From the NCBI GenBank assembly GCA_001792895.1, contig MARA01000031.1, forward strand, positions 434,001 through 498,000: 64,000 bases of DNA, read 5' to 3'. The DNA is from Lentinus brumalis (lineage: Eukaryota; Basidiomycota; Agaricomycetes; Polyporales; Polyporaceae). Both the position numbers and the translations under genes were made by a program. The notes below the pieces were generated by a model, which ran no database searches, was not told where the DNA came from, and saw nothing but the letters and a program-made list of their open reading frames with translations. Numbering within the stretch: the first letter of the stretch is position 1; every line of letters begins with the position of its first letter. This document shows, in pieces, positions 28,401 to 64,000 of the stretch.

Positions 28401-30982
28401 CCGCAAGAAGCCAAAGTATGTACGTACTACGGCAGCAGCACCCGGCGCCGTAAGTTCGGAGACGGGTGAGCTGACAACCTGCGACACAGAACGTAGAAGA
28501 ATGCCGAGTTGTCAGCGTGATTGCAGCTCATGATGAGTGAAACACGGAGCGGGATGTACCTGGGTCCTGAACTGCTTCCGCGGGCTCGTTCTCGGCGCTG
28601 CGGTGATATCCCCGGCATGTTCGCGGTGACCGATCGTTCGCCTGACAGAGAGGTCATGGTGGTCCGACGTCGGGGCGTTGCTCGGCGGGGAGGGAGGGCG
28701 GCGGGGCGTGTGCAGTGTGCACGACTGCACGGCGGAGGACCGAAGCGACGGGGACGACGAGTATTGGCATACGGTGCCGGCGTGCATCCTGCGCTGGCGA
28801 CTCGGAAGCACTCAGCAGCTGAAGGCGGCCGCTGTCGTACCCCCAGCGCACGCGCGACACGGGGCTGACTCCTCTGTCCAGCTGCCAGCCGTGAGCACCG
28901 CGAAGGCAAACCCATGCATGTACATGGTCAGGACAGAGGTCAGAGCTCACAACGGCTCCGAGCTCGGGCTGGACGAGGACACTACAGGCGAACTTCTCGA
29001 CCCCTCGTTCGACGTTCAGGTACTTACTTCGCCCCGCGCTGCGCACGACGCAGATACAAGACTACGGCCGTTCGAGTGTGTGTGCGGTAGCACAGCGAGA
29101 GCGGGCACCGTGGCGGCGCAGACGCAGAGCTGCTTGCATGGATCGAGGGAGGGCCGTCAAGACGTGCGAAGTCCGCTGCTAGCAGCCCATGAGTCGTGTG
29201 TGAGCTCGGGCGAGCACTGGCAGGCAAGCGTAACAACGTACCTCGACGGACTGTGTTCGTGACTCCCCGGGTTCCGCACTTCGGAGGGCGGCGCAGGAGC
29301 TCGCATTGGTTTCCGAGTCGTCGAGCTGCAGATGGCGGCGGGACGGTGCACTCGGGGCCCGGGCAAGGCTGGCGATGGTATTCGAGTGTATAGTACTACC
29401 AGTACATGTTCGCGGTACGCCTCCGCGACGATCTGCTCTGGCTGGACGTCGTGCTCGCGCTGTGAGCCGTCGACGCGGACTTCATGTACGCGGCGGTGAC
29501 CCCGGGCAGATTGCCAGTGAGTCTGTTCCCTCGAAGCCTGTCCGTCGCGGTCTGTCGTCCGTTCTGCGTTCAAGTTCTCCGCTCCCCGCTCCGGGTACCG
29601 TGTATGGCGCATCGTAGCGTACTGCGACTGCTCTAGCCTCTAGCCTCTACCCCGAGCCCGAGCGGCGTGGCCGCACCTCTAAATAGTACTTAGGACGAGA
29701 CTCAAGACTCGAGAGCGGGCTCGGCGGGAAACCTCCTCTCCAACGACGGCCCCAGCGAGCGTCCTCGCCGTCGAGCATTGACAGAGGCTGCACTGTCCAT
29801 TGGCACAAGGACGCCAGTGCTCGTCGCTCGACGCCGCCAACGTGCCTCTTGAACGCGGTGCATCGTGAACGCGGTGCAGCGAGCCTCCAGGGCTCGGACT
29901 GCCGGCCGCAGACGAAGTGCGACGTACGGCGTATGACTGCAACGTCCCGGGTCCCCAAGACTCGCGTTCACGACCGTCGGCGGGGCTCGCCGCCTGACGC
30001 TGCGACGAGTCGACTCCGAGTCCCCGTGTCACGGTCATTGTGCGTGCTTACGCCGCTGCCGTCGCCCGCCCTGCCCCGCCCCGCCCTCCTCCTCCGCGTA
30101 CCTCAAGTCCCCGGCCTCCCTGTGCCTGTGTCGTGGTGCATCGTACGACTCTTGCCGATAAACAGTAGCCAGTAGCCAGTAGGCGGTGGCCAGTAACCAG
30201 TGGCCACCGCGTACCGAGTCCCGACCGCGGCGTACTTCGTGCAGCGTGCTTCGTGCTTCGTGCAGCATGCTTCGCCCGATCGTCATCTCCGCCGCCCGCC
30301 GCCCGCCGTCCACCGTGTGCAATGTCGCGCACCAACTAGTCTCACTGCACTGTCAGGTCTGGGACCAAGCTCCGGCCAAGCGTGTGCGTGTGTGTGAGAC
30401 TCTGTGGACGTCTTGAGGCGGACAGGGACTCTCTGCGGCTGTAGACTGAGGGCCGCGGCGTGGACGAGCCGCCGCCGTTGCCGTTGCCGTTAACGTTGCC
30501 TGCACTCTGCCAGTGAGCGACCGACTGACTGCGTGTGCTCGCTGCTGCGTGTCCGACCCGGCCAGCCACGCTCGACGGTGCGCATGCGGGCAGCGGGCAG
30601 CGGGCAGTATGAGTGCCAGTGCCAGTGCCGGTGGGGCGCATCGTCGTCGTCGTCGTCGCCGGGGCTCGGAGTCGGACTCGGCGGGGTTCTGCTGCGGTGC
30701 AGGGTCCAGTCACCAGTCGCCAGTGCGACGGGCGGCGGGAACGCGGGGCGGCGTTCGAGTTGTATAGTTGCATGGATCCGCGGATTTGCATTGAGTACTC
30801 CAGGCTCCCGGGGCGGCGGGGATAGCGTGAGGCTGCCGTCTGGGACGTAATGTGATTTGTGACGGGCGGCGGGGCAGGCAAGCGAGGCGAGATGCCGTGC
30901 GTGCGCGTGCGCGTGCGGACGGTGTTTACGGTGTTTGTGCGTGGCAGACTGAGTCTGGGACGGTCCGTGCGCGGGGAGGGGT

Positions 30983-45203: not shown

Positions 45204-45655
45204 ATGAGCGTCGCAGGCGGGCTAGCACCCGCAAGGAACGGAAGGTATGGAGGCGATGATGGATCTATGTCCGTGGCGTCCACAGGAAAGGTACGTCTCG
45301 GGGTTAGTTCTGCAGGCTTTTTGTTGAGTACAACCGCGCTGCGTACGTTCTCCAGGTCTCAGTCATCCTTCCCGGAGAGCTTTCGGATACGGTCATCGAT
45401 TTTCTACATGACGACAAGGACTCCTTGCAACAATGCTCGCTCGTCTGTAAAGCCTGGCTTTCCTCCAGCCGCCTCCATCTGTTCCACTCCATAACCGTTC
45501 GGGATGCCGAACGCACCTTCAAGAGGTGCTTCAGTACAACGGATGCACCTTACATGGTGCCGGACCGTGCTGAGGATGCATCCCAGGAAGATGCATCCCG
45601 GGGCCAAATGAAGGAAATATGTCGCACAGTGGATTGTAAGGAGCGTACAGATTAG
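45204..45655 (+). pseudogene. Truncated F-box gene
   Basis: Exon 1 from 45,204 (MSVAGGLAPARNGRYGGDDG) ends at a GTACGTCTCG donor near 45,291. A 68-bp intron leads to the F-box (VILPGELSDTVIDFLHDDKD, SLVCKAWLSSSRLHLFHSIT). After RTFKRC the expected leucine-rich body is missing. The frame runs about 40 further residues to a stop at 45,655 and then the sequence is non-coding, with a MITE 110 bp later. It is likely a 3'-truncated relative of the split F-box gene, and a short F-box-only protein could still be made. Confidence 0.6.
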
Positions 45656-45768
45656 TAAGTGCATCAACAGAGCATAATTCGTGGTCAAAGAAGCCGATAA
45701 GCATGTCAACAAATGGATAAGTGCGCAAAGTACGCGTAAAGACAAGAATATCAATGAATGAGTAAGTA

Positions 45769-46036
45769 CTGTACCATTTCAAACTGTTCGGCACGTCACG
45801 CGTCACAGAGGCCCGAAATTGACGAAATTTCGGCCTCTGTCACATGTCACCGGCAGGATTGTCGAAATTGTTCTGCGGGCGCTTACCGGTCCGCGGGAGC
45901 CGCGCGCTGTCGCGCGCCCAAATTGTGCCGAATTTCAGGCCTCTGTCACGGGCAGGCGCCCGTAGTGCCGAATTGTCGAAATGGTTTGACCCTGTCACAG
46001 GTCACAGCCAGTGCCGGACTGTTTGAAATGGTACAG
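45769..46036. mobile_element. 268-bp MITE with TA target duplication
   Basis: The ends are inverted repeats: CTGTACCATTTCAAAC at the left and its exact complement GTTTGAAATGGTACAG at the right, imperfectly extended inward by GGCA/TGCC. TA flanks both ends (45,767-45,768 and 46,037-46,038), as for Tc1/mariner-type insertions. The inside has no ORF, but has a hairpin (CAGAGGCCCGAAATT / GAAATTTCGGCCTCTG) and three copies of a GGCCTCTGTCAC-like block. It is non-autonomous; the mobilising transposase is unknown and need not be the KDZ gene nearby. Confidence 0.85.
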
Positions 46037-46038
46037 TA

Positions 46039-46969: not shown

Positions 46970-49900
46970 TTACACGCTACGCTTCTCCTTCTCCTTCCCC
47001 CTCTCCTTCCCGGTTCCCTTCTCCCTGCCCTCGCGGTGGCCTCCCTGACGCTCCTTCGAAGAGGCCCGGCTGGAGGAACACGGTGTCCAGGCCGTACCAT
47101 GTTGCTGAGACGAAAGCAGGGCCGTCGCGAAGTTGGGGCAACGTCGAACATTGGGGAGACGGACTAGGAGGGTGTGTCGGGTGTGCTTGCAGACGAAGAT
47201 AGAGTTGCAGATGGGTTGCGTGCGCCAAGTCGTACTCGAGGGATCCCACAGCTCGATCTCGCGGACGTGCAAGTTGCGAAGAAGTACCGCCAGTCGGGTA
47301 CCGTCGGTCAGATAGACCGCCGCCTGCGAAGTCGGCACGCCGATCTTGTGAACCTTCGGCGAGGCTCCATCCTGGCGATATGTCATCAGTACGAGAGCAC
47401 AACCGTGGAAGTGTCGTGAAGGACTAACCATCGTCCATAGGTAGATCTTGAGCATCCACGCAGTAACACTGTCGAAGTCGTGAGTCCACGCCGGTGCCGT
47501 AGACTTCAAGGGAGGCTCCACAACATACGGGGCGTGGATGTAGGCGATATGCTCTTCTATGTCGTCGTCGCCATCGTCGTCGTCGCTAGCCGCGTCGCTG
47601 CCGCTGTCGGTACTATTGCGCTCGATGTCTTGGGAAGTGCTGTGGCCAACCTCCCTGGCAACGGAAGGAGATTCCAAATCGCCAGCAGGCTTGCACGGAG
47701 ACTGAGAGAGGCGACTGGAGTCGCTCTGGATGGGCGATGATGGAGGTAATGGGGACAGAGGCAAGGCTGCCAGAGGACGACGAATAGCGCGTGGGCCGGC
47801 CGGTTCACCGTGGGAAGACGTTGGTGCGACTTCGGCTTGTGAGACTTCACCGGCACCGGCAGCCTCCGCCGGACGAACCGAGGAAGTCGTCACAGGCATA
47901 GGTGGTTTGTCTGCGTTCGGCGCATTCTCTTCTTCGGAGTTAGAATCCGTGTCCCATGGTGCACGCTCGTCCTTCCAGCGACAGCTTGCATCGTACGACA
48001 ACGGAAGTCCTCGCCCCTTCCTGATGCGGTCGTATGCGGTCGCGAGGTCCCGATCAAGGATGTGGAAACGGGGTCCGGATGTCAGGACTGGAGGTTCAGC
48101 ACCGGGCTTCCCGAACGCCTTACTAACTGGCCCCGGCTTCGAGGCAGCAGTGCGTGGACGAGATGAGGCGGTGGTGGTGGTGGAAGGTGGATGAGGGGCG
48201 GGAGCAGAGTTCGCAGGACGAGAGATGGCCGTAGAGTTACGAGGGGCGGTAGCGGAGTTCGCAGGACGAGAGATGGCGGTAGAGTTTGTCGTTTGAGCGG
48301 CAAGGAAGGCCAGGCGACGCGTGTTGGGGCAGGACAAGCACGAACAGTTGTCGTCGCCATCGTCGTCGTCGTCTGAGTCAGACATTTCCGCTAGTTCAGG
48401 CATGTCCGGATCGTCGGGCATGTCGGTGATGGCTTCTTCGTCCACGCCATTTTTCTCCTCGTCGATGGGCCGGTCTCCTGCATCCTTGGTGGTTGGCGTC
48501 CTCTGAGCACTCTCCACAGCATTGTCTCTGCTATCAGACCAGTAGCGATCTTCCAGCCGCTCACCCGGGGTGAAGTCGCTGTCGTCCTTCTCACCCTCTG
48601 CAAAGAGATCAACGGACGGAGAACGACCATCGAAGCCCTTGTTCTCCTTGTTGCTGGACTGCAAGGACGACTCGACGCTGCCATCGCGGGCGCGATCGCT
48701 TCTAGCCTGGGTCCCGGGAAGCGGTGAAGGGACGAGGAGGGAGTGGTTGGCATTTCCGCGAGGCGAAGGCACGACTGGAGACTGTTGGGCGCGTGCCGAA
48801 GGCGATCGGGCAGGAGGAGACCGGGGAGGACACTGTGCATTGGGTTCGACATCACGGAGGACGAGAGGACCCTCTTCCTCCGGTTCTGTCTTCACACGGA
48901 CTGCGGGGCGACGGGAGCTTCTGATCCGTGGTTCGTCCTCTGTCGAGCTGATGGAGATGACGCTGGTGTCGGACAGCGAGCCAGCGCGCTTCTGTGGCAC
49001 AGCATCGTGCTGCGGGAGATAAGCCATAGAAGCATATTGTGTAGCCACGGATACGTACTTTGGGCTTCGCAGATGTTGAGTCTGGCTGCGCTTTGCGGGC
49101 TGGTGGCAGCGCTGGTGTGGTAGCGGCGTCCGAATTTGAACGAGCGCGCTTCTGCGGGACGGCTTGTATGAGCATGAGAATCACCCGGGGTAACCACAGA
49201 TACGTACTTTGAGGTTTGCAGAGGCTGTGTCCACCGGCGTCTTGCGGGTTGGAGGTTGCGCTGGTGTCGTAGCCGTCTGACGTCTCAGTGGCCGCGGCTT
49301 GACCTTCCATGTACTGCCGGTGATCAAAGGCGGCAGAGCGGTTCCCGCTGTGCCGTTGACCATGGTGGTGGGCGCAACAGTCGGGGGAGCTCGCGACTGG
49401 ACATGTGCCACTGATGCACGGCCGAGATCCATTGGGAACGGCTTGACCTTGTGTACACGCGCGGCAGGAGTCGGTGTATCCACCGATGATGGGGACGACG
49501 TCGCGGTGATCTCCTCCCGTGAGATCTCACGCTGCGCGCGATTGCGGATCTAAAGAGTGCTCAGTATGCTAACCACTCCCGAGGAACATGAGGAAGACTT
49601 ACAGCGGCAGGGGTCTCGCGGTGGGGGGGTGTCGTTACACTGTCGCTGTGCTCGGCCTGCTTGTCACAGTCAGCCGCTGATGCAGGGTTGATTTGGGCAG
49701 CGTGTACGTACCGCTTCTCGTTGCAGCATAGCTGCACGACGAATACGATTGTTGGCCTGAAGCAAAGGCGGTTAGGGACAGACAATACCATGCCCTACGG
49801 ATTGGGTACTCACATCGCTCTCGGAGCGCGGTTGAGATGATGACTGACTTTGCGAGCCGCCATCGGGAGCAGGGACGGTTCCGGATGACGCCTGGTTTTG

Positions 49901-50958
49901 GGGGCGAGAGTCCGTGTGGCGTGTTGGGGTGTCCTCGTCGTCGTCGGCCAACTCCACGTCGGAGTGGTTGATAGCCTCTTGCAACTGTAGAGCGACCGCG
50001 TAGTCGTGGTCCAACTGCGCCTGAGAGGTAGTAGTCCGGATGGATGTCGCGCTACTTGAAGGGCCGTCCTGAGCGAGATGTCGTCTTAGCTCATGGGACT
50101 CATAGAGGTTATCATCACCACTGAAAGACTTACGGTGTATGCGGTTGCATGCGGAGGAGTCGAGGTCGAGCCGGAGGGCAGAGCCGGAAGAGGTTCACCC
50201 TGCAAAATTGCGTGTCAGCGAGTGATGTTTGCGGGTTTAGAGAATACTCACATGGTGCATATGGGCGACGAGGGCGTTCACGTACGCGGCGGTTGACTGC
50301 GACTCAGGACTGGACTCGGACTGGCCAGCGCGGCTAGTGGAAGGCGTGTTCTGCGAGTAATATGTATATCAATGCATAGGGCTCGATGGAAGGGAATCGT
50401 ACCGAAGAAGCGGGCGTTGGCGCGGTCTGTTGTCAAAGTTAGAATGCGACTTCTAGTACGATGAAAGAGTCAGGCTAGGGTGCTCACTGTGACATTGTTG
50501 CCATCCCTGGCTTCCGATACACTAGACTCCAATATCTCGTCAAGCTTACGCTGATTCTCAATCTCGTCGATCTGTTCTAGCGGCAGCGGCTCCTGTTGAG
50601 GCATGTTCCAGAACGTGCACCTGACTGGACGCCCGTTTTCGTCGAACGCATTGGGATTGGTGCACTGAGGAACATACGCAGCGTATACATCAGACATTTG
50701 CACGACAAGGAGAAGGAGGATACGAACATGGTGGTACCAGTGACCCGCGATGTACCTCGCATAAGCCAACCGGGTCTGTATGGTATTGCGGCCGCAATGG
50801 GGGCACCTGTGAAGAGGCACAGGCTTGCGCGCAAGAGCACCTCGATGACATAGAGCCTTGAGAGCGTCCGAGTACTTCGAGCGGCTGCGGGTAGACCTCT
50901 TGCTCTTCTTCTTGGACGGCGAGCGGGACCGGCGTGGTTTGCGCGCCTTCTTAGCCAT
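46970..50958 (-). CDS. Long disordered protein with GRF-like zinc finger
   Basis: Many exons. Exon 1 (50,958-50,728) starts MAKKARKPRRSRSPSKKKSK, a strongly basic nuclear-type signal. Exons 1-2 (50,664-50,488) join across a 63-bp in-frame intron to give CPHCGRNT, then GHWYHHC and VRCTFW, spaced like a GRF zinc finger (C-x2-C..GxWYxxC..CxFW), a nucleic-acid-binding fold. Small exons follow to about 49,060. The large exon to 47,429 is Ser/Pro/acidic and disordered, with VKTEPEEEG, a DDDDDGDD run and a CSCLSCP Cys patch. After a 57-bp intron (47,372-47,428) the C-terminal block is better ordered (KIGVPTSQAAVYLTDGTRLA) and ends in a Lys/Glu tail. A nuclear role is inferred; function unknown. Middle exon borders are not all fixed. 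Confidence 0.6.
49060..49300 (-). repeat. Duplicated exon-intron module inside the GRF-like gene
   Basis: Exon 49,151-49,060 contains ATTPALPPARKAQPD and is followed by an intron beginning GTACGTATCCGTGGCTAC. The exon before it (ending at 49,208) contains ATTPAQPPTRKTPVD and its intron begins GTACGTATCTGTGGTTAC. The exon at 49,151 also starts KRARSNSD, like the next exon (KRAGSLSD). This is direct evidence of exon-intron tandem duplication. Confidence 0.7.
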
Positions 50959-51050
50959 CGAGGAGAGCGAGGTGAAGGACGATGAGACGAGGGAGGGCGA
51001 GCCGAGGGCGAGACGACGAAGGGGGTGCCGAGGGCGAGACACTGAAGGGT

Positions 51051-51155
51051 GAGACGAAGGACGGTGAGAGGAGGGAGGGTGAGACGAAGGACGGTGAGAG
51101 GAGGGAGGGTGAGACGAAGGACGGTGAGAGGAGGGAGGGTGAGACGAAGGACGGT
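51051..51155. repeat. 30-bp minisatellite, about 3.5 copies
   Basis: Unit GAGACGAAGGACGGTGAGAG plus GAGGGAGGGT, at 51,051, 51,081 and 51,111 and a partial copy. It lies about 90 bp upstream of the start codon of the GRF-like gene, in its leader or promoter. Confidence 0.95.
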
Positions 51156-51538
51156 GGGATGAGCGCGAGAAGGAGAGCTCTGCGGCGAAGAAAGAAAGTC
51201 GAAGTCTGGGGGAGTTGAGGGCTCGGACGGGTTTTAAGGCTGGAAAAATTGTGGCTGGGTCGACGGAACCGGGCGATCGTGTTCATATCCAACGAATTTT
51301 TCTTGGGCTCCTCGGGGTCTCCGCCGAAAGTTCAACCTCTCTTTCCGGAGCGAAGGAAATCGCGGATGTCGTCCCAGGTCCGGGACGGGGCGCGATCTGC
51401 AACGCAACATGTCCGCTTTAGCATCCGGGACTTCAATCATCTCCTACACCTCCAATACATTTCTCAAATGTTTGAGCTAGGCGGTCAATCATCTACTAAG
51501 ACTTCGACGATTCCACGAGGCACAGACTACGCTAACCC
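51156..51538. other. Intergenic region between two minus-strand genes
   Basis: Promoter region of the GRF-like gene and trailer of the next gene. No gene seen. Confidence 0.6.
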
Positions 51539-54036
51539 TTATCGCTTCTTCTTCTGAGGCGCACCCTCGTTCGCGCTGTTCTCATCGTCCCTCGCCCGTT
51601 TGCTGGGGTGGGATGTCACCTTGCCCTGGGCATATTTGGCCGCAGACATGTCGCTGTTCAAGCACATGAGCGCAGTCATATTGACACCTGGAAGGATACG
51701 CACGGACTGTTGCCCAGTCGTCGGGCTGTACGCTTTGAGATACGGCCAGTTCGAGTCTCGACCACCTAGCACCATGACCGGTCAGTGTCCAGCACGCACG
51801 CGTAAGGAGATTGAACAACCTGTGCGATCACATCTGCGTTCGGGGCTCGTTTGGCTGCCTCGGACTTCTTGATGGCGGCGGCCGCCTTCTTCGCATGGGC
51901 CTTGTCGGCGTGCTGCACAACGGATTCGCGATGAGTGACAAACATGAAGGCACGACAAGGACACGCACATACCTTGCAAGGGTTCTCTTTCGTCGTAACA
52001 TGCGTGGTACCGGTCGCCGGTGCATCTTCAACCGCTGCTGATCGGCTGCCCTTGGACTTGGGCAGACTATCGTCCTCTACGCCCGAGGCCCCAACCCCAG
52101 CCTGCGACTTCTTCGCGTTCTTGTCGGCCTTCTTCCGGGCCGTTTTGATTACTCCACTCCTACAAAATCTTGCGTCTAGGTTGCATCGGCAGAAGCTACG
52201 GAAAGAACTCACGAGGCAGCTTCGTTGATCTGCTTCGAATTCTTGAGTGGCGCAGATCTCTTCGGCTTTTTTGGTGTCCGCTTCTGGGGCGAGGTGCGGT
52301 CCCTATGATGTAGAGCATGAGCGGGTAAGCAAGGGGGAAGGGGAAGCATGAGACGCACATCGTCAACTGCGGTACCAACATTTTCTTGGGCGCGGGGACG
52401 AGCTTGCTGAGAGCGGTGAAGTCACCGAATTCGTCGTCTGACGAATCCGACAGGTCTCCCAGTGAACGCTGGCGCTCAATGGTCTGCGCCTGGTTCTTCT
52501 GTGCGACAACCGGAGCCTCCTCTATCGGGATGGTACCTGTCGTCGTGTTGCGCGGTGGCGAAGGCATGCACCCGGAGTTACGCGCTGGAAAGTCGGTGCT
52601 GTTGGCGAGTGTGACACCGGCATCGGGCGCGTGCTGAGCCGCAGGACCCTCAGCTGCTTGCGTGGCTTGCGCAGAGATGGGAGATTCAAGCCTCGACACA
52701 GGCAATTGCGAGGAGGGATGCTGCGGAACCGCGCCAGGCGTGGGCACGTGCGGGGGACCTAAACATGTCGCAACTTTAGACAGAGTGATACTCTGGCGAG
52801 GACGAGGATTCGACGTACCGATGGCCGGAGTAGGCAAGTCTTGCGTGGCAAGAGGACCTGCGTGCCAGCAGCGGCGTTACAGCAACAACTGACAGGTGTG
52901 ACGAACACAGTACGTACCGGCGGATACAATGTCTCCGGCCACTGTTCCCCCAAGGGGGACTGGGGCTAGCCGCCTATGAGCGTGCGAGGGCTTCTATGAT
53001 GTTGCCGACTCACCATCAAAAATCTCACACAGCCATTTCATGAACACCACTTCGATGTATTGAGCGGTGCAGCGGAACTCTTCGGCAAGGCGTTCGACGA
53101 AAGTTCGCCCCTGTGCGTCGCGCCCGGTGGGTCGGCTAGGAAGGTGGGTTCAAGACGTATACTGGCACGTTCGAACGGCAACAGATACGTACTGAATGGC
53201 GGCAATCTCCCCGTGCTGGTCGATCCCGCCTGTCAAGATCATCCCAACCCAACCACCCTCCTTCTGCCAAGTGTTCGCTGTACGCTTCGTGACCGCTGGC
53301 AGGTCCTGCACATATCTAGCAGAATAGGTTAGAACACGGAAGAGAACAAAGCAAACACGCGTACTTTGCTCGGCGAACCTCCTTTGAGAGATCGCCCTCA
53401 TCCGCCGCCTTCTTCGCCTGCGCTTGTGCCTGCAATGCTTCAACCTCTTCTCTGGACAACGAATCGAACACCGCTTTGAAGTTCTTGTTCCAATCCCGCA
53501 TAGCGTCGGCCTTCGGAGTGTCTGGACCACGGTTCATTCTGGGCTTCGATGGATGTTGACTAGATTGGAACTCGCGGTACGCGTTGGGCTTCCCACCGGT
53601 TGCGGGAGGAGAAACATCGTCGTCGTCGGTGTTATCGTGTCCCTGTGCACGCTTGCGCCGGCTGAAATTGTCGCTACCGCGCTTGAGGACACCTAGGATA
53701 CGCTGATGAAGACTTGAGACCCCACGGACACTTCCAGCGAGAAATGACCGCCTCAATGCTCACCGATGATGCCATCTTCAACCGTTGCTGTTGCTCGCTC
53801 TCCGTCTCAGCCGTAAGACGGACAGCTTTGCGGTTGTGCTTGCGTCGGGCTTGGAATTCTTCTTCGCTTTCTCCGCCAAGGAGTCCACCGAACCGAGCCC
53901 GATAAAGCTGCTCGATACGCAAGGCAGCGGCCTTCTGTGCGCCATGGGGACCGCGTAAGATACGGCGTACCTCCTCTGTCTGTTGCATTTGCTGGATGAA
54001 GTCGAATTCATCATCGCGGAGCTGTCGACGACCCAT
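51539..54036 (-). CDS. Multi-exon hypothetical protein, nuclear-type C-terminus
   Basis: Phase-checked exons: 54,036-53,764; 53,702-53,365; 53,315-53,193; 53,111-53,014; 52,941-52,918; 52,857-52,819; 52,758 onward; then three or more exons to a stop at 51,539. The N-terminus is helical (MGRRQLRDDEFDFIQQMQQT). The middle reads TWQKEGGWVGMILTGGID, then GRTFVERLAEEF and YIEVVFMKWLCEIFD; the W-x-GGxD-x8-F pattern recalls an uncharacterised Agaricomycete family (recollection only). A long Ser/Pro linker follows (SLGDLSDSSDDEFGDF) and a basic tail (KRARDD..PQKKKR) suits nuclear import. The last three exon borders are less certain. Function unknown. Confidence 0.6.
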
Positions 54037-54383
54037 AGTGGGCAGAGGGTGGGGAGAGAAGGCAGAGGACAAGCTGCAAACCCGAAGTCCGTGCGGAAGG
54101 GGGGATGCAAACCGTGGCCGTGCGCTCTTGGGCGGCAAAAGTGTTTTGCGCGATTGAGATCTAGCCCAGCCCTGTGCAAGTAAGCGTGCGGGTCTATCGT
54201 ACAGCAGATGACACCTCGTCGACAGCGAAGATGGCTACATTGCATATCACAGCATAGAAAATACAGCACATGGGTTTGTCCGAGCAGAGGCAAATTGGAT
54301 ATAGGAATAGCCGTCGGAAACTGTGAACAGAGGGTTCAACGGTGTTAGTACCGAAATAGACGGGATGCAGAGTTGTGCATACC

Positions 54384-54896
54384 TTAAACAGCACGCAAAG
54401 TTGACCCCTCAACCTCGACGGCGGGAAGCTCGCTCACCGGTCGCTCTCGGACAGGTGGAGTAGGGAGGCGATGGAAGCGGGCCACGAAAGTACGAACATG
54501 AAACTCCACCGCCATTCCCTCGATATGCAACATTCGAGCCCCGTCCATCGACGAGACGGTCGTCCCGACATGGCGCAATTCCTCCGGGCACCCTGGCCAA
54601 CGAACGAGGAGGTCGACGAATGCTTGAAGGTACGCCCGGGTCTCCTCCCAGCCTGGGTCCGGGGGTCTCGTCCAGCAGAATGGTGTAGCCGCCTCGGGGT
54701 CAGGGCACAGCGCTAGCCCCGATCGTGACGGGCCCCACACCTCCGAAATGTGTGCCTCGCGCGTCCACCGCTCCAACTCGGGCCAGGATGACAATTCCAC
54801 CATGACGGCGTCGAGAGCCAAGAGCTCGCAGCGCCAGTTTGTCTCGTGAGCTTCCCACACGAGATGACAACGGAGATGTTCTTCATGAGCGGCCAT
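54384..54896 (-). CDS. Small hypothetical protein (about 170 aa)
   Basis: Single-exon frame starting MAAHEEHLRCHLVWEAHETN and ending EVEGSTLRAV. A frame extension upstream runs into the TTGTA repeat zone, so the internal ATG at 54,896 is preferred. Landmarks: NWRCELLALDAVMVEL, WTREAHISEVWGPSRSGL, FCWTRPPDPGW, LLVRWPGCPEEL and FVARFHRLPTPP. The Trp- and Pro-rich pattern resembles an uncharacterised multi-copy Polyporales family (recollection). No catalytic residues are evident. It lies just beyond the tandem array that follows the KDZ gene. Confidence 0.55.
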   Translation of the reverse strand: MAAHEEHLRCHLVWEAHETNWRCELLALDAVMVELSSWPELERWTREAHISEVWGPSRSGLALCPDPEAATPFCWTRPPDPGWEETRAYLQAFVDLLVRWPGCPEELRHVGTTVSSMDGARMLHIEGMAVEFHVRTFVARFHRLPTPPVRERPVSELPAVEVEGSTLRAV

Positions 54897-54944
54897 GGAC
54901 TGAGTAACCTCGGTGTCGCCATAGACAGGACACCAGTGGTATCC

Positions 54945-55325
54945 AGACTTGTAGTACAAACCCCACAGGTATGGTACAATGGTTGTGCTGTACGTGGGGG
55001 ATATTCTGTACAAGACCCTTGTACAAGAGCCATAGGATTGTACAACCAACCACTTGTAGTACAAGTAAGGCTTGTATTACAAGTGGTCTACTGCAAAGGG
55101 CAGCTAAATGCGGACTTGTACAAAGGATTGTAACCCGCATAGAGCAGCCTATACAGAGCTTGTACAAGGCTTGTAATAGATGTGATCAGCAGATATAGAT
55201 CTGATAGATCTGGTGATGGGAAATCTAAGTACCAAGATCCTGGCTCTTGTAACCAATTGTAACATGGTCTGGGGGCTATATGGAGGCAGGCTCTGTAAAA
55301 GTGATTGTAACCATCCGTGGGTGTC
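54945..55325. repeat. TTGTA/TACAA-rich zone with hairpins
   Basis: About 380 bp with roughly twenty TTGTA or TACAA occurrences, often as CTTGTAC or TTGTACAAG palindromes. A 16-bp imperfect hairpin lies at 55,050-55,086 (CCACTTGTAGTACAAG / CTTGTATTACAAGTGG, 15 of 16 paired). It is continuous with the 79-bp array, whose unit carries the same motif three times. Confidence 0.75.
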
Positions 55326-55329
55326 TATA

Positions 55330-56490
55330 TTCGGACAGAGAAAGCTGGAGCTTGTACATGGGGTCCAGACCTTGTAATGCAGATTGTAACTGGCCGTAGT
55401 GATCCCGATTCGGACAGGAAAAGCTGGAGCTTGTACATGGGGTCCAGACCTTGTAATGCAGATTGTAACTGGCCGTAGCGATCCCGATTCGGACAGAGAA
55501 AGCTGGAGCTTGTACATGGGGTCCAGACCTTGTAATGCAGATTGTAACTGGCCGTAGCGATCCTGATTCGGACAGGAAAAGCTGGAGCTTGTACATGGGG
55601 TCCAGACCTTGTAATGCAGATTGTAACTGGCCGTAGCGATCCCGATTCGGACAGGAAAAGCTGGAGCTTGTACATGGGGTCCAGACCTTGTAATGCAGAT
55701 TGTAACTGGCCGTAGCGATCCTGATTCGGACAGGAAAAGCTGGAGCTTGTACATGGGGTCCAGACCTTGTAATGCAGATTGTAACTGGCCGTAGCGATCC
55801 CGATTCGGACAGGAAAAGCTGGAGCTTGTACATGGGGTCCAGACCTTGTAATGCAGATTGTAACTGGCCGTAGCGATCCCGATTCGGACAGGAAAAGCTG
55901 GAGCTTGTACATGGGGTCCAGACCTTGTAATGCAGATTGTAACTGGCCGTAGCGATCCTGATTCGGACAGGAAAAGCTGGAGCTTGTACATGGGGTCCAG
56001 ACCTTGTAATGCAGATTGTAACTGGCCGTAGCGATCCCGATTCGGACAGGAAAAGCTGGAGCTTGTACATGGGGTCCAGACCTTGTAATGCAGATTGTAA
56101 CTGGCCGTAGTGATCCCGATTCGGACAGAGAAAGCTGGAGCTTGTACATGGGGTCCAGACCTTGTAATGCAGATTGTAACTGGCCGTAGTGATCCCGATT
56201 CGGACAGGAAAAGCTGGAGCTTGTACATGGGGTCCAGACCTTGTAATGCAGATTGTAACTGGCCGTAGCGATCCCGATTCGGACAGAGAAAGCTGGAGCT
56301 TGTACATGGGGTCCAGACCTTGTAATGCAGATTGTAACTGGCCGTAGCGATCCCGATTCGGACAGGAAAAGCTGGAGCTTGTACATGGGGTCCAGACCTT
56401 GTAATGCAGATTGTAACCGGCCGTAGCGATCCCGATTCAGACAGGAAAAGCTGGAGCTTGTCATAGCGATCCCGATTCGGACAGGAAACG
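55330..56490. repeat. 79-bp tandem array, 14 full units
   Basis: Unit landmarks are GATTCGGACAGGAAAAGCTG, CTTGTACATGGGGTCCAGAC, CTTGTAATGCAGATTGTAAC and TGGCCGTAGCGATCC. The CTTG landmark recurs every 79 bp from 55,351 to 56,457 (14 periods). Units are nearly identical, with a few alternating variants (AGAG/GGAA, CCCG/CCTG, TAGC/TAGT). Each unit has three TTGTA motifs (TTGTACA, TTGTAAT, TTGTAAC). The array lies downstream of the KDZ transposase stop codon. Confidence 0.97.
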
Positions 56491-57013
56491 CTATCTCAAT
56501 TATACCATCATCATTGTCAGTATTCCAGAACATCTGCACAGGCTGGGTGCAAAATACAGCCAGAGGTACTGAGGTTTGGAGAGCCATCACAACTTCCAGC
56601 TGCAAAGATCTAATTGTGTGCCAGTTTCTAGGACACTAGTAGCCGCCTCGTTGCTGCGAGCACCATCCTGATATGTTAGGCTATCCGCAAAAATAGTGTT
56701 TGAGCCCATAGTGATAGCCCAAGACATGTCATTGATCGTCACTTACTGACTGCTTCAGTTTGCCGCCCATGATGCCCTTGGGAGATTACTACTTAGCTTC
56801 GCTTTCGGACTCTACAATTGGTTTTTTGCTCAGGCTGAGTCTTAGCAGTTGTGCAACACTGTTGATAGCCGCACTTAGGGAATAAGTAATTTGAACAAGT
56901 CGGCGCTTTTGGACGACTTATGGACATGCCTTACTGAGCTTACTTATCTGACTGTTGCACATTACAGATGAGAGTCAAGATCATGACGATACACATGTGA
57001 TCCTATATACAGC
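56491..57013. other. Spacer between tandem array and KDZ gene
   Basis: About 520 bp, AT-richer than its surroundings, with no credible gene. It would hold the KDZ 3' trailer. Confidence 0.6.
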
Positions 57014-60000
57014 CTATTCATCCCTATCTGAGCCAGCCTCAGAGTCTGAGGAGTCTGAGGCTTCGACGCCAAAGGCCACATTCAACTCCTCGCCATCCAA
57101 CACAGCCATGCCATTGCGACTGCGTGGCCGCACCTTACGAGCGTACTTCTCGTACGGGCGGATCCAAGGTGGTAGAGGCCCTATGCTGGCAAGCTCGTGC
57201 ACCCAAAACGATGCGGTGCGGATTGCGAGCTTGTCAAACACAGCTGCCTGCTTCCGGGCATAGATCCGAAGGCCCCGTTTAAGACGTGCAGGCACGTCTG
57301 CCCGACGCCCGGCCTGATTTCGCCACCATCGAGACTTCCACTGGAAGTACTCGATAATACGTCGCATCTCTTCCAATAGGAGAGCTTGTTCCTCATCCCA
57401 CCGGTCGGCCCGCGCCTTACACCGCGCCCATTCTGCGCGCATAGTCTGCAGGAACTCCTCATTGTCCGCAGGATTCATGCTGTTAGCAGCAGATTCCCGT
57501 GCGGACAACGATGTGAGCCAAATCCAGCTTGGCGTGTAGCGACCCTCGCTTGCGATGACTTCATCGTCCTCTCTCCGAGGCCCGCGGAGATCTGCGTCAA
57601 GGAGCGGCCGGTAAGTCGTAGTCCAGGAACCGTCCGGATCGAGAGCCACCATCGCAGTGCGCGCCGCTCGGTACCTCTCCACCGCACGTTGCTGCTTGTC
57701 TTTGAAGCGCGTATACAAGCCTTGTTGCCTGGTCATGGAGCGCTGGCCAAGGCCGAGGACGTTCATCCTTGAGAACTCGGATACCGCAGCCAGAACACGA
57801 CGGATACGCCGAATCTCCGCGAGCGCATCGGATAACTGGGCCAGACGTAGTCGCTGTTCCTTCTTCCGCAAGCCCGAGAGAGTCTCGTTGGATGCCAAAG
57901 TTGCCGGAAGGGCGGATGGGAGCCACAGGCGGACATCTTCAGCTTTGATTGCAGGACGCGGACCCTCTTGATCGGAACGGGTGCGACCGGCGGCCGCACG
58001 TAGTTCTGCAACCATAGGCATGTGGATGTCCTGGAGCTCGCGCCAGAGATCAATCCGGCGCGTCAAGACGTTGCGCTTTTCTTGCTGCGCCGCGAGCTCT
58101 GACAGACTGCGCCCCGTGCTCGCTCGAAGGCGGAGGGCACGCCTGCCAACCCGTGCCAGTATGAGTCAGCTGTAGAGTGAGATAAGAGGAAACGCGTACT
58201 GCTTCTCTTCGAGCTCCAGTCCAACCTGCAGGAACACTCCTGGAGTTGTGTCGTGGGGAGGCAGCGTCCCGGCCGCGGCTTCCGCTGCTTCTTCCTGGTT
58301 GAGCTGGAGCTTGACCGCGACGAATGTGATGGCTGTAAAGCGAGGTCAACGCAAGCTCGTGGAAGTCCACAGTCGCTCTCAGCTTACACGAGGTGGGTTC
58401 GTCATACGGGTCCGGTTTGGTGGGGTCTGCATTCCATGCGCTGAGCATTTCCTCCCATCCCTTGACAGTATCCTCTGGGATGTTTGCAGCGAACTCTTCA
58501 TAGACCTTTCGCTGTTTTACGCGCATCTCTTTGGCTTCCTGCAGCGCACGTAAGAGAACTAAGCCTGATGATAGTGTCAATCATGATGTACGCAGGTCAA
58601 CGCAGATAAGACTTACCGAACGAGATCGTCTTCTGCCAATTCCAGGCGCCCCAGTGGTCGTTGTAGACCTCATGCCGCATGCCGAGGCCCATCTCCCGCG
58701 TACTGAGTGCCAGAGGGTTCATGTGTGACCAATGAGCTTCAATCCATTCGCCGTAAGTGCGTCCGACGTGCTTGAGAAAGTTGAGAGACCACCGCGAGTG
58801 CGGCTCCCCTCCGTGAACACGGTAGTGCTTCTTCGGAATGGCAAAGCGGATGTCTTCGACCTTTGTTCTATCTATCCTCATCTCGGGAGGAAAGTTCTCG
58901 TCCATCCGCTTGAAGAACTTCTTGCACCATTGGCAGGCGATGTCGTAGGAGAAGAGCAGTGCCGCCAGGACGAGGCCCAAGACCGTCGAAAAAACGAGGT
59001 AGTCCATATTGGCATACCTGAAGATGTTGTATCCTTGGTCAGCCCGAACACTAGGAAGCATAGAAAGCTCACATACCCTTCGCCGAGCTGGAGATCTCCC
59101 GCTCCGTTCTTCCGGACAAGGGCATGGCGAGCGCACAAGACAGCGCCGATACCCGAAGCAATGTACCCCTCGCGCCGAAGATTGGCCTTCAAGATAGCGT
59201 TGTGCTCTGCAGAGCAGGTGTTTTCCTACGACGATCAACGTCAGCTGACATCAGACGGGCTTTGCGTGCGTTGTCATACCTCCTTTTGGCCTTTGCAGGC
59301 GGCAACATGCGCTTGATACGCTTTCTCTTCGACGTAATAGGCCCACCCCGGGGCGAGCTCGATGTCCTCGATCCCTCGGTCCTTGCACCGAGCGCGGAAG
59401 TTGGCATCTATCATGAGATACAGCGTGTACAACCACCTGGTATTCGAATCATGCGTGAGATCGACGCGCTGATAGAAAGCAAGAAATCTGAACTCACTTC
59501 GACTCTGCCGGCGCATTCTCCCATCCCTCTGGTAGATTTTTGCCAGGGTGCGGGCAGGCTGGACACTCAACAACGAGTTCGCCAGGTCCGGTTGCCTGCG
59601 CGCCAGCTGGATCGTGCGCTCGCGCGGATCTCTTCAGCATCTGGAGATGACGCCAGATACGAACGGCATGAGAGAGTTGCTTGTATCGATTCTAGAAAGT
59701 ATCATTAGGGAACTCCGTGAGGACGACGGATGATCTTTGAAAATGAAGCTCACCGGGACATCGGCACCTCCTGAGTTGTCGGTGATCCGCTCCAGGGTCT
59801 TCCAGTAGTCGTGCAGGTTGGTCTTGGCCTGGAAATTGAGCTCCTGGAACGTCTTGAGGAGCCGAAATGTGAAGACCGTTTCCGGGCGGTCCATGCTGGC
59901 CGGAAACCAGCCCATGCGCATGAGCTGACGCCAATCTGGCGTGAGTTCACCCGAAGCAGGGTCTATGCACTTGCAGAACTTGACCCGGTGCGTATAGATT

Positions 60001-60837
60001 CCCGTAGAGTCGCAGATGACGATCCGGCGGCCGACCAGAGAAGGGTGAGGGCATGTTCCACGGTCATGGCCAACTTGCACTTTCAAGCCGAGCTTTTCGA
60101 GCGAGCTGTTGCAGAATTTATCTCCATCCCACTCCTGCTCCGTCGCTTGTGAGTTTCCAGAAGCTGAATGAATCGGGATTTACTCACTTCGACCCGGTGC
60201 AACAGGTTCTCGGCATGCTTCTCAAGTATGCACGACTTGCAGCGGAGAGGGCGTCGGAAGCAGTCGCGACATCGTATAGTTGCAGGGCGGACTCCGCATA
60301 GATCGCAGAGAACGAAGCCCTCTTCAATAGGCTCCTCGCAGCCTTCAAAGGCGAGCAGTTCATCGAGGAAGTCTTGCCTGGCGGGGAGCCACTTCCGAAG
60401 ACGATTCTAAAGAAGACTTCAGTACTCGGATGAGAAAATGTAGAAGAACGGTCACGCACTACTGCACGTAAATCAGAACGCGGTCTCTTGGCCTGAGTGG
60501 TGGGACTGGTGTCGCCAGTCGATCCCTCGAGGTCTTCAGCTTCCGCGACAGGCAATACAGCCAAGATCGAATTCACTGTGTTGTCCGACGAGGCATCTCC
60601 TGCATAGGCGGGTGCTTGCTCGCGCGGGTCTGGAATGACCTGCATACGCTCGGTTTTCTGTCGTCTGCGCCCGGAAGAGCTTTCTGAGAAGTCGACATGT
60701 CGCACTGTTATAGGTTGACTCGAGCCAGCCTCGGTGCTACTTCCACTGGGCCCGTCGAAGACTGTATCTATCACATCAAACTTGGCCTTCTTGCCTTTGC
60801 GTGGACCCGATGTCGCTTTGCGTTTTTCCGACCTCAT
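57014..60837 (-). CDS. KDZ-superfamily transposase with CxC2-type Cys cluster, intact
   Basis: Ten exons: 60,837-60,460; 60,406-60,188; 60,134-59,754; 59,691-59,498; 59,436-59,280; 59,225-59,077; 59,017-58,617; 58,564-58,388; 58,332-58,200; 58,142-57,014. All nine introns are 53-62 bp and phase-correct, giving 1,105 residues. N-terminus: basic leader (MRSEKRKATSGPRKGKKAK), then a Cys/His cluster at about 142-245 (CEEP, CDLCGVRP, CRDCFRRPLRCKSC, LGLKVQVGHDRGTC). The DDE/RNase-H-like core includes YLMIDANFR (about 405), SYDIACQWC (Asp about 518), and GEWIEAHWSHMNPLALSTRE (Glu about 583-586). C-terminus: coiled coil and SWIWLTS..RWDEEQALLLEEMRR, ending with an acidic tail. KDZ proteins cut and paste DNA transposons. 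No frameshift, so it may be active. Neighbours on the same strand include a TET/JBP-like gene. Confidence 0.93.
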
Positions 60838-61696
60838 GCTCGATGTAGTTGGGCCGACCGACGACGCAGCCGGTAGACGTCCGTGGCGGCCAGGGAAAGA
60901 CTAATGATGGCAATAAGCGCGGATCCAACTGCGTACGAGTTTGCGCATCCGTACTGTAATGCATGCTATATCTCACTCAAATCAGCCTTATATGTTTCAC
61001 AGCCTGACTACGAGGACGCACATCTTGAAGACTACCATGAGCCTCAGCCTGTCTCAGATCCTGACCCGGTGTTGTTCATCCTGCATCCTCCAAATGCCGA
61101 CCTCGCAGCCCGTCCACGACACACGGTGCACTACCCCGTACGGCCCCGACGATGGCGCCTGCACATCGCTCTGCACGCCTACAAGATGCCGTGCATGAGC
61201 TCCCCAAAGACAATTTGCATGGCCAAATCCTGCGAAAACCGCGGTACCAGCCCGCACGCGTCGCCCAGGCCGACTGCTCCGCCCGTAACGGTACGCACAC
61301 GAGTTCAACCTGCCGTAACTGACTTCCATGCTACAGGCGAGCCAGACGATGTTCGTCTCGAGAGAAATGACGCGGTTTCCGGTGAGTTATGCTCCCTTGT
61401 CCATTCGGATTTCAAGCAGTCTGATGTCGAGGCCGAAGAAGGCTCGGAAGTCTTCGTGCCCCCATCTCCGTCGACGGCGCCCCTCTCCTCTCTCGCCTCG
61501 CGCTGTAGCGAGTTCACTGCGTGCGAGGGCCGACCTCGAGCACGATGGCATCCAGCCAGTTCACTGTCCCCCGAAGCCGGGACGAGCATCGAGTATCAGT
61601 TCTGGATTGGACTATTCACCCCAAGTAGTTTCGCATTGCATGTATCAGATCCGACCACAATTTATCTGTCTGGCATTCATCTTATACATGTCCGCT
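60838..61696. other. Gap between KDZ start and next gene; one doubtful + ORF
   Basis: Contains the KDZ promoter. A + strand open frame at 60,883-61,755 (290 codons, starting MAARERLMMAISADPTAYEF) is divergent from KDZ and overlaps the next gene's 3' end. It has no recognisable domain and its C-terminal half is Ser/Pro compositional, so I do not call it a gene. Confidence 0.4.
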
Positions 61697-62499
61697 CTAC
61701 AATACTTGTGCATCGTGCGCAGCTAGCTGTAGGTGGACTTTGGTGGCAGCGATGACATACTGAACGTTAGAGCTTGCAGTAGTGATACCCCTCCACACCT
61801 CATGCAAGGCGTCCGAGGAGAGACCTCGAGCAGGCATGCTCACCAGAACATCCTGTATCCACTCCAACAACTCCTCACCCCTGTCGACCTGCTCCTCAGC
61901 CTCAGACACCCAGGATTCCATCTCTTCCCCCAGTAACGCACGCTCGTATCGAACACAGAGCTGTTTCCAGAACGCGTTGAGATTCTCGCGATATCCCCAG
62001 TAGTTCAGTGCCTCGTTGAGCCTGTCGAGGACTCGAATGAGTTCATATTCGGCGGTCGCAGGGATAGGAATAGGCCAAGCTAGGGCATTCGTCCTGTCGC
62101 ACCTCAACCAATTGCATCATGACTGACTGCACTTTGACTCACCGGAACGAAGGGTCTATACCATCGCCCTCGAATCCAACATGCTCCTGCGCGGCGGGCG
62201 CGGTTGCGTCTGAGCCAGAATCCTCGTGGGTCTCGGACGGCCCCGCTTGAAGTAGTTGCTTGTGCTTTTGTCCAACCGGCCTGCTTCCCTTGCCCGCCCT
62301 ACTCAATTTGCGCAGGGCCTTCACCGAGATCCCGAGCCTTTCTGCTCTGGCGGGAGGTTAGTGTTAGACACAAGTGCAGCTTGGGAGCAAGGACTTACTC
62401 CGACTTCTTCTTCAGGTAGTGCCGGTGATTCCTCTCCTGCTTCAGAAGCTTGCTCCGCAGAGTCTCCTCGTCGGTTATGTCTTGGACAGCCCGAGGCAT
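61697..62499 (-). CDS. Charged helical hypothetical protein, 3 exons
   Basis: Exons 62,499-62,399, 62,346-62,143 and 62,093-61,697, joined in phase across 52-bp and 49-bp introns, giving about 233 residues. The N-terminus is highly charged (MPRAVQDITDEETLRSKLLK, HRHYLKKKSEAERLG) and could bind nucleic acid. A Gln/Ser/Glu linker follows, then an alpha-helical C-terminal domain (YELIRVLDRLNEALNYWGYR, WVSEAEEQVDRGEELLEWIQ, LHEVWRGITTASSNVQYVIA). No known domain. It lies between the KDZ transposase and the TET/JBP-like gene on the same strand. Confidence 0.6.
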
Positions 62500-62769
62500 G
62501 ATATGTAGACAAGGGATGCACAAGTAGGAGTGACTGCACGTTGGGCTGAGTAGAGGATCAAGGTGAGCATGGAGGCGCTAGTAGTCCGCGGCAATTGAAG
62601 AGGGTTGGCCGCGTCGCTCCGCAGGACTCTATTATGCAACATACCTCATGCGTACATCGTCAGTAACACAGGAGATCCTCTGAAATGTGTATAGCCAAAT
62701 TTCAGACGACCTTACATCCCATGTTGACTACATGTTCTAATACACAACATGACTCTACGATACTGTGTC
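62500..62769. other. Intergenic spacer
   Basis: No gene seen between the helical protein's start and the GTCTTAC duplication. Confidence 0.6.
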
Positions 62770-63105
62770 TTACTTTCAGCGACAGCGTCTTAACCTTCGA
62801 GTAAGACGCCGTCGCATGTCCTCGCATGGATTATGCCATCGTCACCGGCTCACATGTCTATGAAACCTCTCGGCGATATATGTTCGTACGACCAACTCGA
62901 CTACAACAGTAAACTGGTAAGACGCATATCAGTCTATAAGACACCGTAGCCATGTTACTCACCGAATCTTACTTTTGGCGACAGCGTCTTACCCTCCCAG
63001 TAAGACACATGTTTGCATGCCATCAAAGTCTTGTCCGACGACGAACTCAATTACGAAAGTAGGTAGTACGACGGTACACATATCAGTCTACAAATTCGTC
63101 CCATT
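62770..63105. repeat. Diverged 199-bp direct repeat with GTCTTAC/GTAAGAC inverted motifs
   Basis: GCGACAGCGTCTTA occurs at 62,779 and again at 62,978. In each copy it is followed by GTAAGAC, and about 125 bp on by CATATCAGTCTA. The second copy ends inside the last codons of the TET/JBP-like gene, so the duplication copied that gene's 3' end. Confidence 0.8.
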
Positions 63106-64000
63106 TGCTAAGTAAAGACATGCCCAACCTCCATCGCTCCTGGCCGGTAATGTCGAACTTGTTACCCGCAGCCTCGAAGTTCTTCTGACTTTGAAAGCCG
63201 CACGCCGCCCAGCGAAGGAGTCCACCTGCGGTATACTGCGTGATTGACAGGCGAGTTTCGCCTGCTTGTGTCAGGATAGTATTTGAATGGGGAACGGTCG
63301 CGGAGGGTAGAAAGATCGTGGCGCCGGGTGGGAACTCGATCACCTTACGCAAAGACCACAGGACCAGATGTCCGCTCTGCTTAGGGTTGTACCTCCCAAG
63401 CGCAGTGACCGCGCACAACCCCCATGGAACGTTCTGCTGGTCAACATGGCGATGAGTGACGGTGCTCGGGCCAAGGTTGAACGTTGCTGCGGCAAAGACA
63501 TTGCCCTTGAAGGGCGGCTTGAGCTCAGGATCGCGCTCGCACAATTCGCTGAGCACGTCGCCGTAGGAATCGTAGAGCCTGGGTGCCCAGACCTGGAGCG
63601 CGCCTTCGAGCTTGTAAATGACCCGTCCATTGCAACAAACTCGCCACTCACCACTGGCAAAGTTCGCGATGCGGCGAATGGCCGTGTTGTCCAGAGCGTC
63701 TTGGATCACAAGGCGGTTGTGCGCGGAATGGGCGAAGTTCGACGGAGACTTCGGGCCGGTGAGCATGCGAAAGGTAGGCCACGAGCACGCGCACTCACCG
63801 GCTGTCCGCCTCCATAGGTGATTCCAGTAGTGACCGACCAGTAATCGCCGCGGCGGTGGGAGAAGTCGCAGTGTGCAGAGTGGTAGTTCCGCCGCATGTC
63901 CTCAAGCGCCCCGGTCGCTTCCTCAGTCACCGTGCTCCAAGACGCGTCGTTGGGTTGACCGGCAAGCACGACGATGATTGTGCCATCAGGAGCGAGGAGG
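63083..64000 (-). CDS. TET/JBP-like 2-oxoglutarate/Fe(II) dioxygenase (5' end outside window)
   Basis: Visible exons: 64,000-63,799 (enters from the window edge), 63,748-63,652 and 63,603-63,083, joined in phase across 50-bp and 48-bp introns (272 residues seen). TET/JBP enzymes oxidise modified pyrimidines in DNA (5-methylcytosine in TET). Landmarks: IIVVLAGQPNDASW, SVTTGITYGGGQP, the core FNLGPSTVTHRHVDQQNVPW with an HxD iron pair (H-V-D), GHLVLWSLRKVIEFPPGATI, distal His in PSATVPHSNT, and the 2-oxoglutarate Arg in GETRLSITQYTAGGLLRW. All key iron and cosubstrate residues are present, so it appears active. In fungi this family is expanded and tied to KDZ transposons; one lies 2.2 kb away on the same strand. 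No DNA-binding domain is visible in the part seen. Confidence 0.85.

Follow-up and report, generated by a model that had tools for sequence, protein, structure and literature searches.

The window analysed here is a stretch of 64,000 nucleotides from Lentinus brumalis (C62:434001–498000, in a genome of 53.4 Mb in 136 contigs; C numbers denote contigs, C62 being that of the window). It most probably contains two nested units: a young Kyakuja-like KDZ transposon with a TET/JBP-like gene has settled inside gene X of an older KDZ-linked block. We put the probability of this reading at roughly 0.85. The young element is called Kyakuja-like for its 7-bp target duplications and CA..TG ends. Between its inverted ends it holds a KDZ transposase gene, a gene for a small helical protein (HEL), the TET/JBP-like gene and a plus-strand gene (PLUS). 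The features are compiled in Table 1. The gene models stem from a simple splice script that used no transcripts.

Table 1. Features of the young element and of the older block (window coordinates; TIR, terminal inverted repeat; ORF, open reading frame; aa, amino acids)
Feature	Position	Strand	Remarks
Young KDZ/TET element	54,931–71,656; in-window part 54,931–64,000		C62:488931–505656; 16,726 bp as assembled
GACAGGA, left target-duplication copy of insertion 1	54,924–54,930		right copy in C125 beside base 28740
Left TIR	54,931–56,956		tip CACCAGTGGTATCC; 98–99% inverted match to right end
79-bp tandem array, left end	55,333–56,460		14 anchor units (23 in right end); TTGTA-rich
KDZ transposase gene with CxC2 cysteine cluster	57,014–60,837	-	10 exons, 1,105 aa (model)
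HEL, small helical protein	61,697–62,499	-	3 exons, 233 aa (model)
TET/JBP-like dioxygenase	63,083–64,000 in window	-	catalytic exon 63,083–63,901; more exons to about 65,033
PLUS	65,978–68,796, beyond window	+	5 exons (model)
Right TIR	68,919–71,656, beyond window		98–99% inverted match to left end
Gene X, 3' part, interrupted by young element	54,384–54,930	-	5' part at C125:27147–28739; 18 other X loci
Gene B (ORF)	53,674–54,234	-	3 other loci, each 5.7–6.1 kb from opposite-strand KDZ
zf, zinc-finger-like (ORF)	50,470–51,282	-	4 other loci, each 8.4–9.0 kb from opposite-strand KDZ
Gene A (ORF)	46,970–49,180	-	6 other loci, 3 of them 10.9–11.8 kb from opposite-strand KDZ

The young element: edges and insertions

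The original prediction, made from the letters of the window, had drawn one large element from 46,970 onwards and had advised that shared outer edges, terminal inverted repeats and target duplications be sought in other copies of the window's KDZ gene. All of them were found. The KDZ gene piece occurs in five near-identical assembled copies, that of the window included, and in an older one at C59. Among the aligned copies, the similarity breaks off at 54,931 and 71,656 in every case in which the end is included. Both tips read CACCAGTGGTATCC inward, and the ends are CA..TG, as in Kyakuja.

Four left flanks (C62, C125, C77, C59) and four right flanks (C62, C125, C118, C59) can be combined in 16 ways. 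Four of these pairings share perfect 7 bp (GACAGGA, CCACGTC, GTGGGTC, ATATGCT); the remaining 12 share 0–1. The flanks thus define four insertions, and a perfect 7-bp target duplication accompanies each of them. At C59 (210483–225569) both ends and the copy's own duplication lie within one contig. In the assembled window contig, by contrast, flanks of different origin are joined, the left one from insertion 1 and the right one from insertion 2; the 18.4 kb between these insertions sits in C125. Discrete ends and a target duplication, the marks of the KDZ superfamily, are thus present, the latter with 7 bp at all four insertions. A 400-bp end probe yielded 9 genomic matches, none of them outside the copies described; no short element derivatives were seen with this probe genome-wide, which very diverged ones could escape. 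The near-identical copies suggest that the element is moved by its own transposase.

These edges redraw the predicted element. That KDZ, TET/JBP and accessory genes travel jointly is borne out by the TIRs and target duplications, but extent and gene list had to be corrected: of the genes once listed as cargo, the zinc-finger, the "nuclear" and the small one (46,970–54,930) lie outside an element whose edge is 54,931. The prediction had named two findings that would speak against it, copies devoid of all flanking families and edges tight around the KDZ gene. The outcome is mixed. The edges are not tight, and the other copies hold the right-hand families without the left-hand ones; the four left-hand ORFs have no match at the other element copies on C77, C118:1–30000 or C59.

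The KDZ gene was correctly placed. Its spliced model scores 191.7 bits for the KDZ domain PF18758 (cut-off 26.6) and 115 bits for the CxC2 cysteine cluster (cut-off 27). HEL shows no Pfam family above the cut-off, and only one of 44 candidates proved to be a protein-database relative (96% identical); for PLUS it was none of 1,044. The PLUS exons and the N-terminal exon of the TET gene have no Pfam match above the cut-off either, and a structure prediction of the PLUS C-terminus from two sequences was left unused at a mean predicted local distance difference test (pLDDT) score of 37.4.

The TIRs measure 2.0 kb on the left and 2.7 kb on the right and are built largely of a 79-bp tandem unit. C62 has 14 + 23 of these units, C125 17 in a left end and 23 in a right end, and C59 5 + 15; in C77 and C118 one array each is cut by the contig end. 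The motif TTGTA reaches a density of 52.5 per kb in the outer 400 bp and of 31.6 in the left TIR, as compared to 1.4 in the core. By their sequence, the arrays are probably a platform to which the zinc-bearing transposase, or else an accessory protein, binds.

Divergence among the copies

Over 10,922 columns of the core, there are 0 substitutions between C62 and the C125 copy of insertion 1. For the other young copies, the comparison with C62 gives 6 substitutions in 8,072 columns (C125 copy of insertion 2), 11 in 11,932 (C77) and 12 in 11,922 (C118). The young copies vary at 20 sites, a small number, with 18 transitions and 10 CpG/TpG/CpA changes. The CpG-type changes are suggestive of methylation; non-CpG sites vary too in the 79-bp units.

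The C59 copy differs from that of the window by 0–2% over 56,957–64,456, by 6–13% up to about 66,556 and by 19–48% up to 68,918, and yet the outer ends of the two are 97% alike. From this stepwise divergence between similar ends it follows that the C59 copy is a mosaic, one breakpoint being inside the TET gene near 64,457. Codon changes against C59 (synonymous/replacement) amount to 16/4 in KDZ, 5/0 in the TET exon, 6/4 in HEL and 181/224 in PLUS; without selection, a synonymous share of about 0.27 would be expected.

The TET/JBP-like gene

The dioxygenase gene had been recognised by eye, and its catalytic exon has indeed a double-stranded beta-helix fold nearest to TET enzymes. Its Pfam Tet_JBP score of 18.9 bits, however, stays below the curated database cut-off of 34.9, for which reason we call it TET/JBP-like only. 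Among the 34 sequences aligned, i.e., that of the window and 33 chosen from 110 relatives found, 12 match Tet_JBP at E 0.01 or better. The iron site HxD...H (H152, D154, H205) is invariant in all 34. The presence of HxD means that the exon is not of the PE type by its hallmark. The best relative comes from Ganoderma leucocontextum (54%), and the named relatives are all from fungi that we take to be Agaricomycetes.

With the Coprinopsis cinerea enzyme CcTET (structures 7vpn, 8jkk and 7w5p) the window TET shares about 17% identity, and sequence alignment of the two yielded no residue alignment. Asn and Cys are found in the TET exon at the spacing of G331 and D337 in CcTET; by this correspondence of spacing, they may possibly mark a departure from the published AG type.

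Gene X and the older block

If the left flank of C62 is joined to C125 and one copy of the 7 bp is removed, an open frame of 710 amino acids emerges, 528 before and 181 after the junction. This frame is gene X, interrupted exactly at 54,931; its being open across the joined flanks places the young element inside gene X.

Three of the four left-hand ORFs (A, zf and B) belong, together with gene X, to another and older KDZ gene. The full order A-zf-B-X plus KDZ is found at C1:430087, C2 and C104:861092, with KDZ on the opposite strand and X 3.5–4.6, B 5.7–6.1, zf 8.7–9.0 and A 10.9–11.8 kb upstream of it. The order in the window is the same as at the other loci. X is likewise found 4.0–4.9 kb upstream of an opposite-strand KDZ at C104:1009236, C87, C55, C93, C52 and C118:49505, while C99 has X and zf, plus a TET 3.9 kb downstream of KDZ. 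A plain host origin of the left block was considered and dropped, since A, zf, B and X are repeatedly found next to KDZ. Pfam knows none of them above its cut-off (A, B and zf ORFs, first 531 amino acids of X). This includes the GRF-like zinc finger of the original prediction, which went unrecognised whether unspliced or hand-spliced and stays a reading by eye.

The KDZ of the window's older block is found in C125, past gene X and on the opposite strand (CxC2 95.7 bits, partial KDZ 80.1 bits). A Gypsy-type long terminal repeat retrotransposon (C125:18794–25028, 368-bp ends 99.7% identical) sits inside this KDZ gene, and a stretch related to it adjoins the C99 KDZ/TET locus. After subtraction of the young element and the 6.2-kb retrotransposon, hand arithmetic puts B at about 6.0 kb and zf at about 9.2 kb from KDZ, in agreement with the other loci; A, at about 12.7 kb, is somewhat above them.

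The direction of the genes now finds its explanation. The recognisable genes of the all-minus-strand block from 46,970 to 64,000 are on the minus strand, as had been noted, but they do not form a single co-oriented unit: their common direction spans two nested units. PLUS, the next gene past the window end, is on the plus strand, and so is, in window orientation, the KDZ that belongs with the left-hand genes.

Some observations from this neighbourhood may be added. A minus-strand ORF between zf and B (52,196–52,876) has no other match in the genome, unlike its neighbours. Farther to the left, a 28-nucleotide inverted repeat, 93% complementary and 216 nucleotides apart (45,767–46,038), could be a small element resembling a miniature inverted-repeat transposable element, and a plus-strand ORF at 45,308–45,655 is F-box-like by eye. 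Elsewhere in the genome, the TET-KDZ-X blocks of C118:40001–58865 and C52:2050–20000 are 99.8% identical over 16.3 kb; on C118, a 173-bp tandem array adjoins the left side.

Accessory genes beside KDZ

For the genome as a whole, 159 listed matches to PF18758 were merged by hand into at least 92 KDZ loci. The matches of TET, HEL, PLUS, X, zf, A and B were treated likewise, near-identical copies such as C1/C60/C122 or the two C79 halves being counted singly; all counts are approximate and refer to the matches listed. The genome share close to the listed KDZ loci is at least 3.2% within 10 kb and at least 3.8% within 12 kb. The accessory families exceed these 3–4% by far, in the comparison that the original prediction had proposed. 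A KDZ lies within 10 kb at 24 of 43 TET, 14 of 16 HEL, 14 of 19 X and 5 of 5 zf places (18/37, 8/10, 13/18 and 4/4 without the element's own copies) and within 12 kb at 16 of 23 places of the C-terminal part of PLUS and 4 of 4 of B (11/18 and 3/3 without own copies). Some TET, HEL, PLUS and X places have no KDZ nearby, part of them on short contigs. Conversely, none of the seven accessory families is found within 16.5 kb of 52 of the 92 KDZ loci.

Counts of this kind are inflated by near-identical blocks. Fixed spacing and orientation are the stronger evidence. In a first architecture, TET (3.6–3.9 kb), HEL (4.9–5.2 kb) and PLUS (8.9–9.6 kb) lie upstream of KDZ on the opposite strand. It is complete at C1:2632794, C60, C122, C86 and C115; C35, C105 and C109 lack a HEL match only. 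The young element keeps PLUS in place and direction, and has HEL and TET in reversed order and on the strand of KDZ, as after an inversion of the pair. On C79, finally, two copies have KDZ, HEL and PLUS and no TET match; the 900 bp between HEL and PLUS (C79:3051–3950), a place at which a TET would be expected, show no TET and encode a Cauli_VI / RNase H1 N-terminal domain (PF01693, 29.3 bits, cut-off 21).

Objections and alternatives

Several facts weigh against the nested arrangement. The window's own contig holds no copy with both true flanks. The KDZ match at C59 has a broken frame, and the TET exon is broken in three of the six assembled copies (C118, C125:1126 and C59), which may be decay or sequencing error. 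C77 (287747–302773) and C118 (1–14955), with a common target duplication, differ at 15 of the 20 variable sites, which would fit two nuclei or a mixed assembly. At insertion 2, the joined flanks give a repeat-rich frame of 215 amino acids, and at insertion 3 frames of at most 161, which proves nothing. For the older block, neither edges nor target duplications were found. Its left and middle parts share no inverted repeat, and the alignment of its C52/C118 relatives runs into a 173-bp tandem array at one end and stops with the compared DNA at the other. The older block is therefore only a putative mobile unit.

The most serious competitor concerns this last point: the A-zf-B-X-KDZ block could be a duplicated piece of chromosome in which KDZ genes are present by chance. 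The missing inverted ends would fit, and so would the X-KDZ-TET loci of C52 and C118, which are near-identical over 16 kb and lie on a small contig or near a contig start. The KDZ-linked loci have, however, diverged (38–73% identity of the X protein) and have kept order and spacing nevertheless, and the 52 of 92 listed loci without such families argue against a general KDZ neighbourhood. We consider the duplicated segment rather doubtful, though worth keeping in mind.

Less probable is a real recombinant at the C62 junction. Insertions 1 and 2 have the same direction, and an exchange between them could have removed the 18.4 kb that C125 now contains, whether within one nucleus or in the form of a 35-kb circle. 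The direct orientation of the two copies speaks for it, as does the fact that C125 begins and ends within the element, its two ends having 7 kb of the element in common. Yet near-identical 16-kb copies with long tandem arrays are a typical cause of assembler collapse. The lack of any substitution between C62 and insertion 1 over 10,922 columns is predicted by collapse and recombination alike. We regard the recombinant as unlikely.

We are equally sceptical about TET as a dispensable passenger, useless to the element. The C79 copies do without it, and half of the assembled young-family copies have it broken. Against this stand the catalytic exon, in which C62 and C59 differ by 5 synonymous and 0 replacement changes, if at few sites, the active-site residues invariant in 34 of 34 sequences, and the vicinity of KDZ, within 10 kb, at 24 of 43 listed TET loci or 18 of 37 without own copies.

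The single element of at least 17 kb with all listed genes as cargo can draw on the common strand of the window genes and on the KDZ linkage of the left-hand families elsewhere, but the shared edges, like the target duplications, rule it out for practical purposes. All copies that have the left end stop at 54,931, exactly where gene X is cut, and the left-hand ORFs are unmatched at C77, C118:1–30000 and C59.

A possible mechanism

With two nested units, events might be pictured as follows. The KDZ transposase would recognise the ends, move the element of 15–17 kb and leave the observed 7-bp duplication, presumably by cut-and-paste as judged from its superfamily. The long inverted ends with their TTGTA sites are predicted to serve as a binding platform for the transposase or an accessory protein. 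Methylated cytosine of the element is the probable substrate of the TET/JBP-like enzyme, and its oxidation would counter silencing; the TET fold and the published reading of such elements suggest as much. HEL and PLUS recur as partners of KDZ. The young element would have entered gene X of the older A-zf-B-X block, which faces away from its own KDZ.

More tentatively, KDZ elements might be modular systems, a view that we find attractive but would not bet on. The sets {TET, HEL, PLUS} and {X, B, zf, A} would travel with different KDZ at set distance and orientation. The sets could be inverted as a block (HEL-TET), the right arm exchanged between subfamilies (C59), and the TET slot filled by a frame with a Cauli_VI domain (C79). 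DNA oxidation would then be one interchangeable route of silencing escape, and the 79-bp arrays would be a loading platform for proteins.

Mushroom TET-like genes can number dozens, with 43 hand-merged places here, which raises the question of whether they benefit the host or the transposon. A TET-bearing element delimited to the base, with near-identical, mosaic and TET-less relatives in the same genome, makes the question testable. KDZ biology has missing parts, for which HEL, PLUS, X, B and zf offer concrete candidates. The signs of module exchange merit a wider survey. On the practical side, near-identical elements with array-built ends can mis-join assemblies.

Relation to known systems

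KDZ was reportedly named by Iyer 2014, where some of the accessory genes may already be described. With this reservation, and as far as the open-licence literature was searched, the kilobase TIRs built from arrays and the KDZ accessory genes at set distances seem to be new. So do the signs of module exchange, i.e., the C59 mosaic and the sister element without detectable TET.

In its presumed working, the element resembles En/Spm (CACTA) of maize, where many short end repeats bind an element-coded protein that is itself linked to demethylation. The resemblance is in working only: En/Spm has an unrelated transposase and a 3-bp duplication.

Among KDZ elements proper, mobility has been demonstrated by trapping for KDZ1, KDZ2 and KDZ3 of Cryptococcus neoformans (PMC12810828). 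Like the window element, they combine TIRs with a KDZ transposase that has a cysteine cluster. They differ, according to the accessible parts of that paper, by a size of 9.2–11 kb, TIRs of 139–241 bp, duplications of 4–8 bp and CxC1 instead of CxC2, and TET is not mentioned there. From the sources available in part, it further appears that Pleurotus ostreatus has intact KDZ genes with CxC2, that KDZ TIR motifs of Marasmius oreades are in a supplement to the respective paper, and that transposons and TET genes of C. cinerea and Laccaria bicolor are marked by 5-hydroxymethylcytosine/5-formylcytosine.

The closest known counterparts, and an already known kind, are the TET-bearing (TET+) Kyakuja transposons. 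Their complete copies, as described by Kojima 2025 (PMC12730594), show 7-bp duplications and have the ends CA..TG; the same author counts 46 TET-like genes in C. cinerea and proposes silencing escape for these elements. The window element shares with them the combination of KDZ and a TET/JBP gene in Agaricomycetes, the 7-bp duplications and the CA..TG ends. The accessible text of the same paper holds no discussion of HEL, PLUS or recurring accessory genes beside KDZ, and it reports no TIRs for the two Laccaria families Kyakuja-1_LB and -2_LB, a trait that is descriptive and not known as defining. The window element, in contrast, has TIRs of 2.0–2.7 kb with 79-bp arrays.

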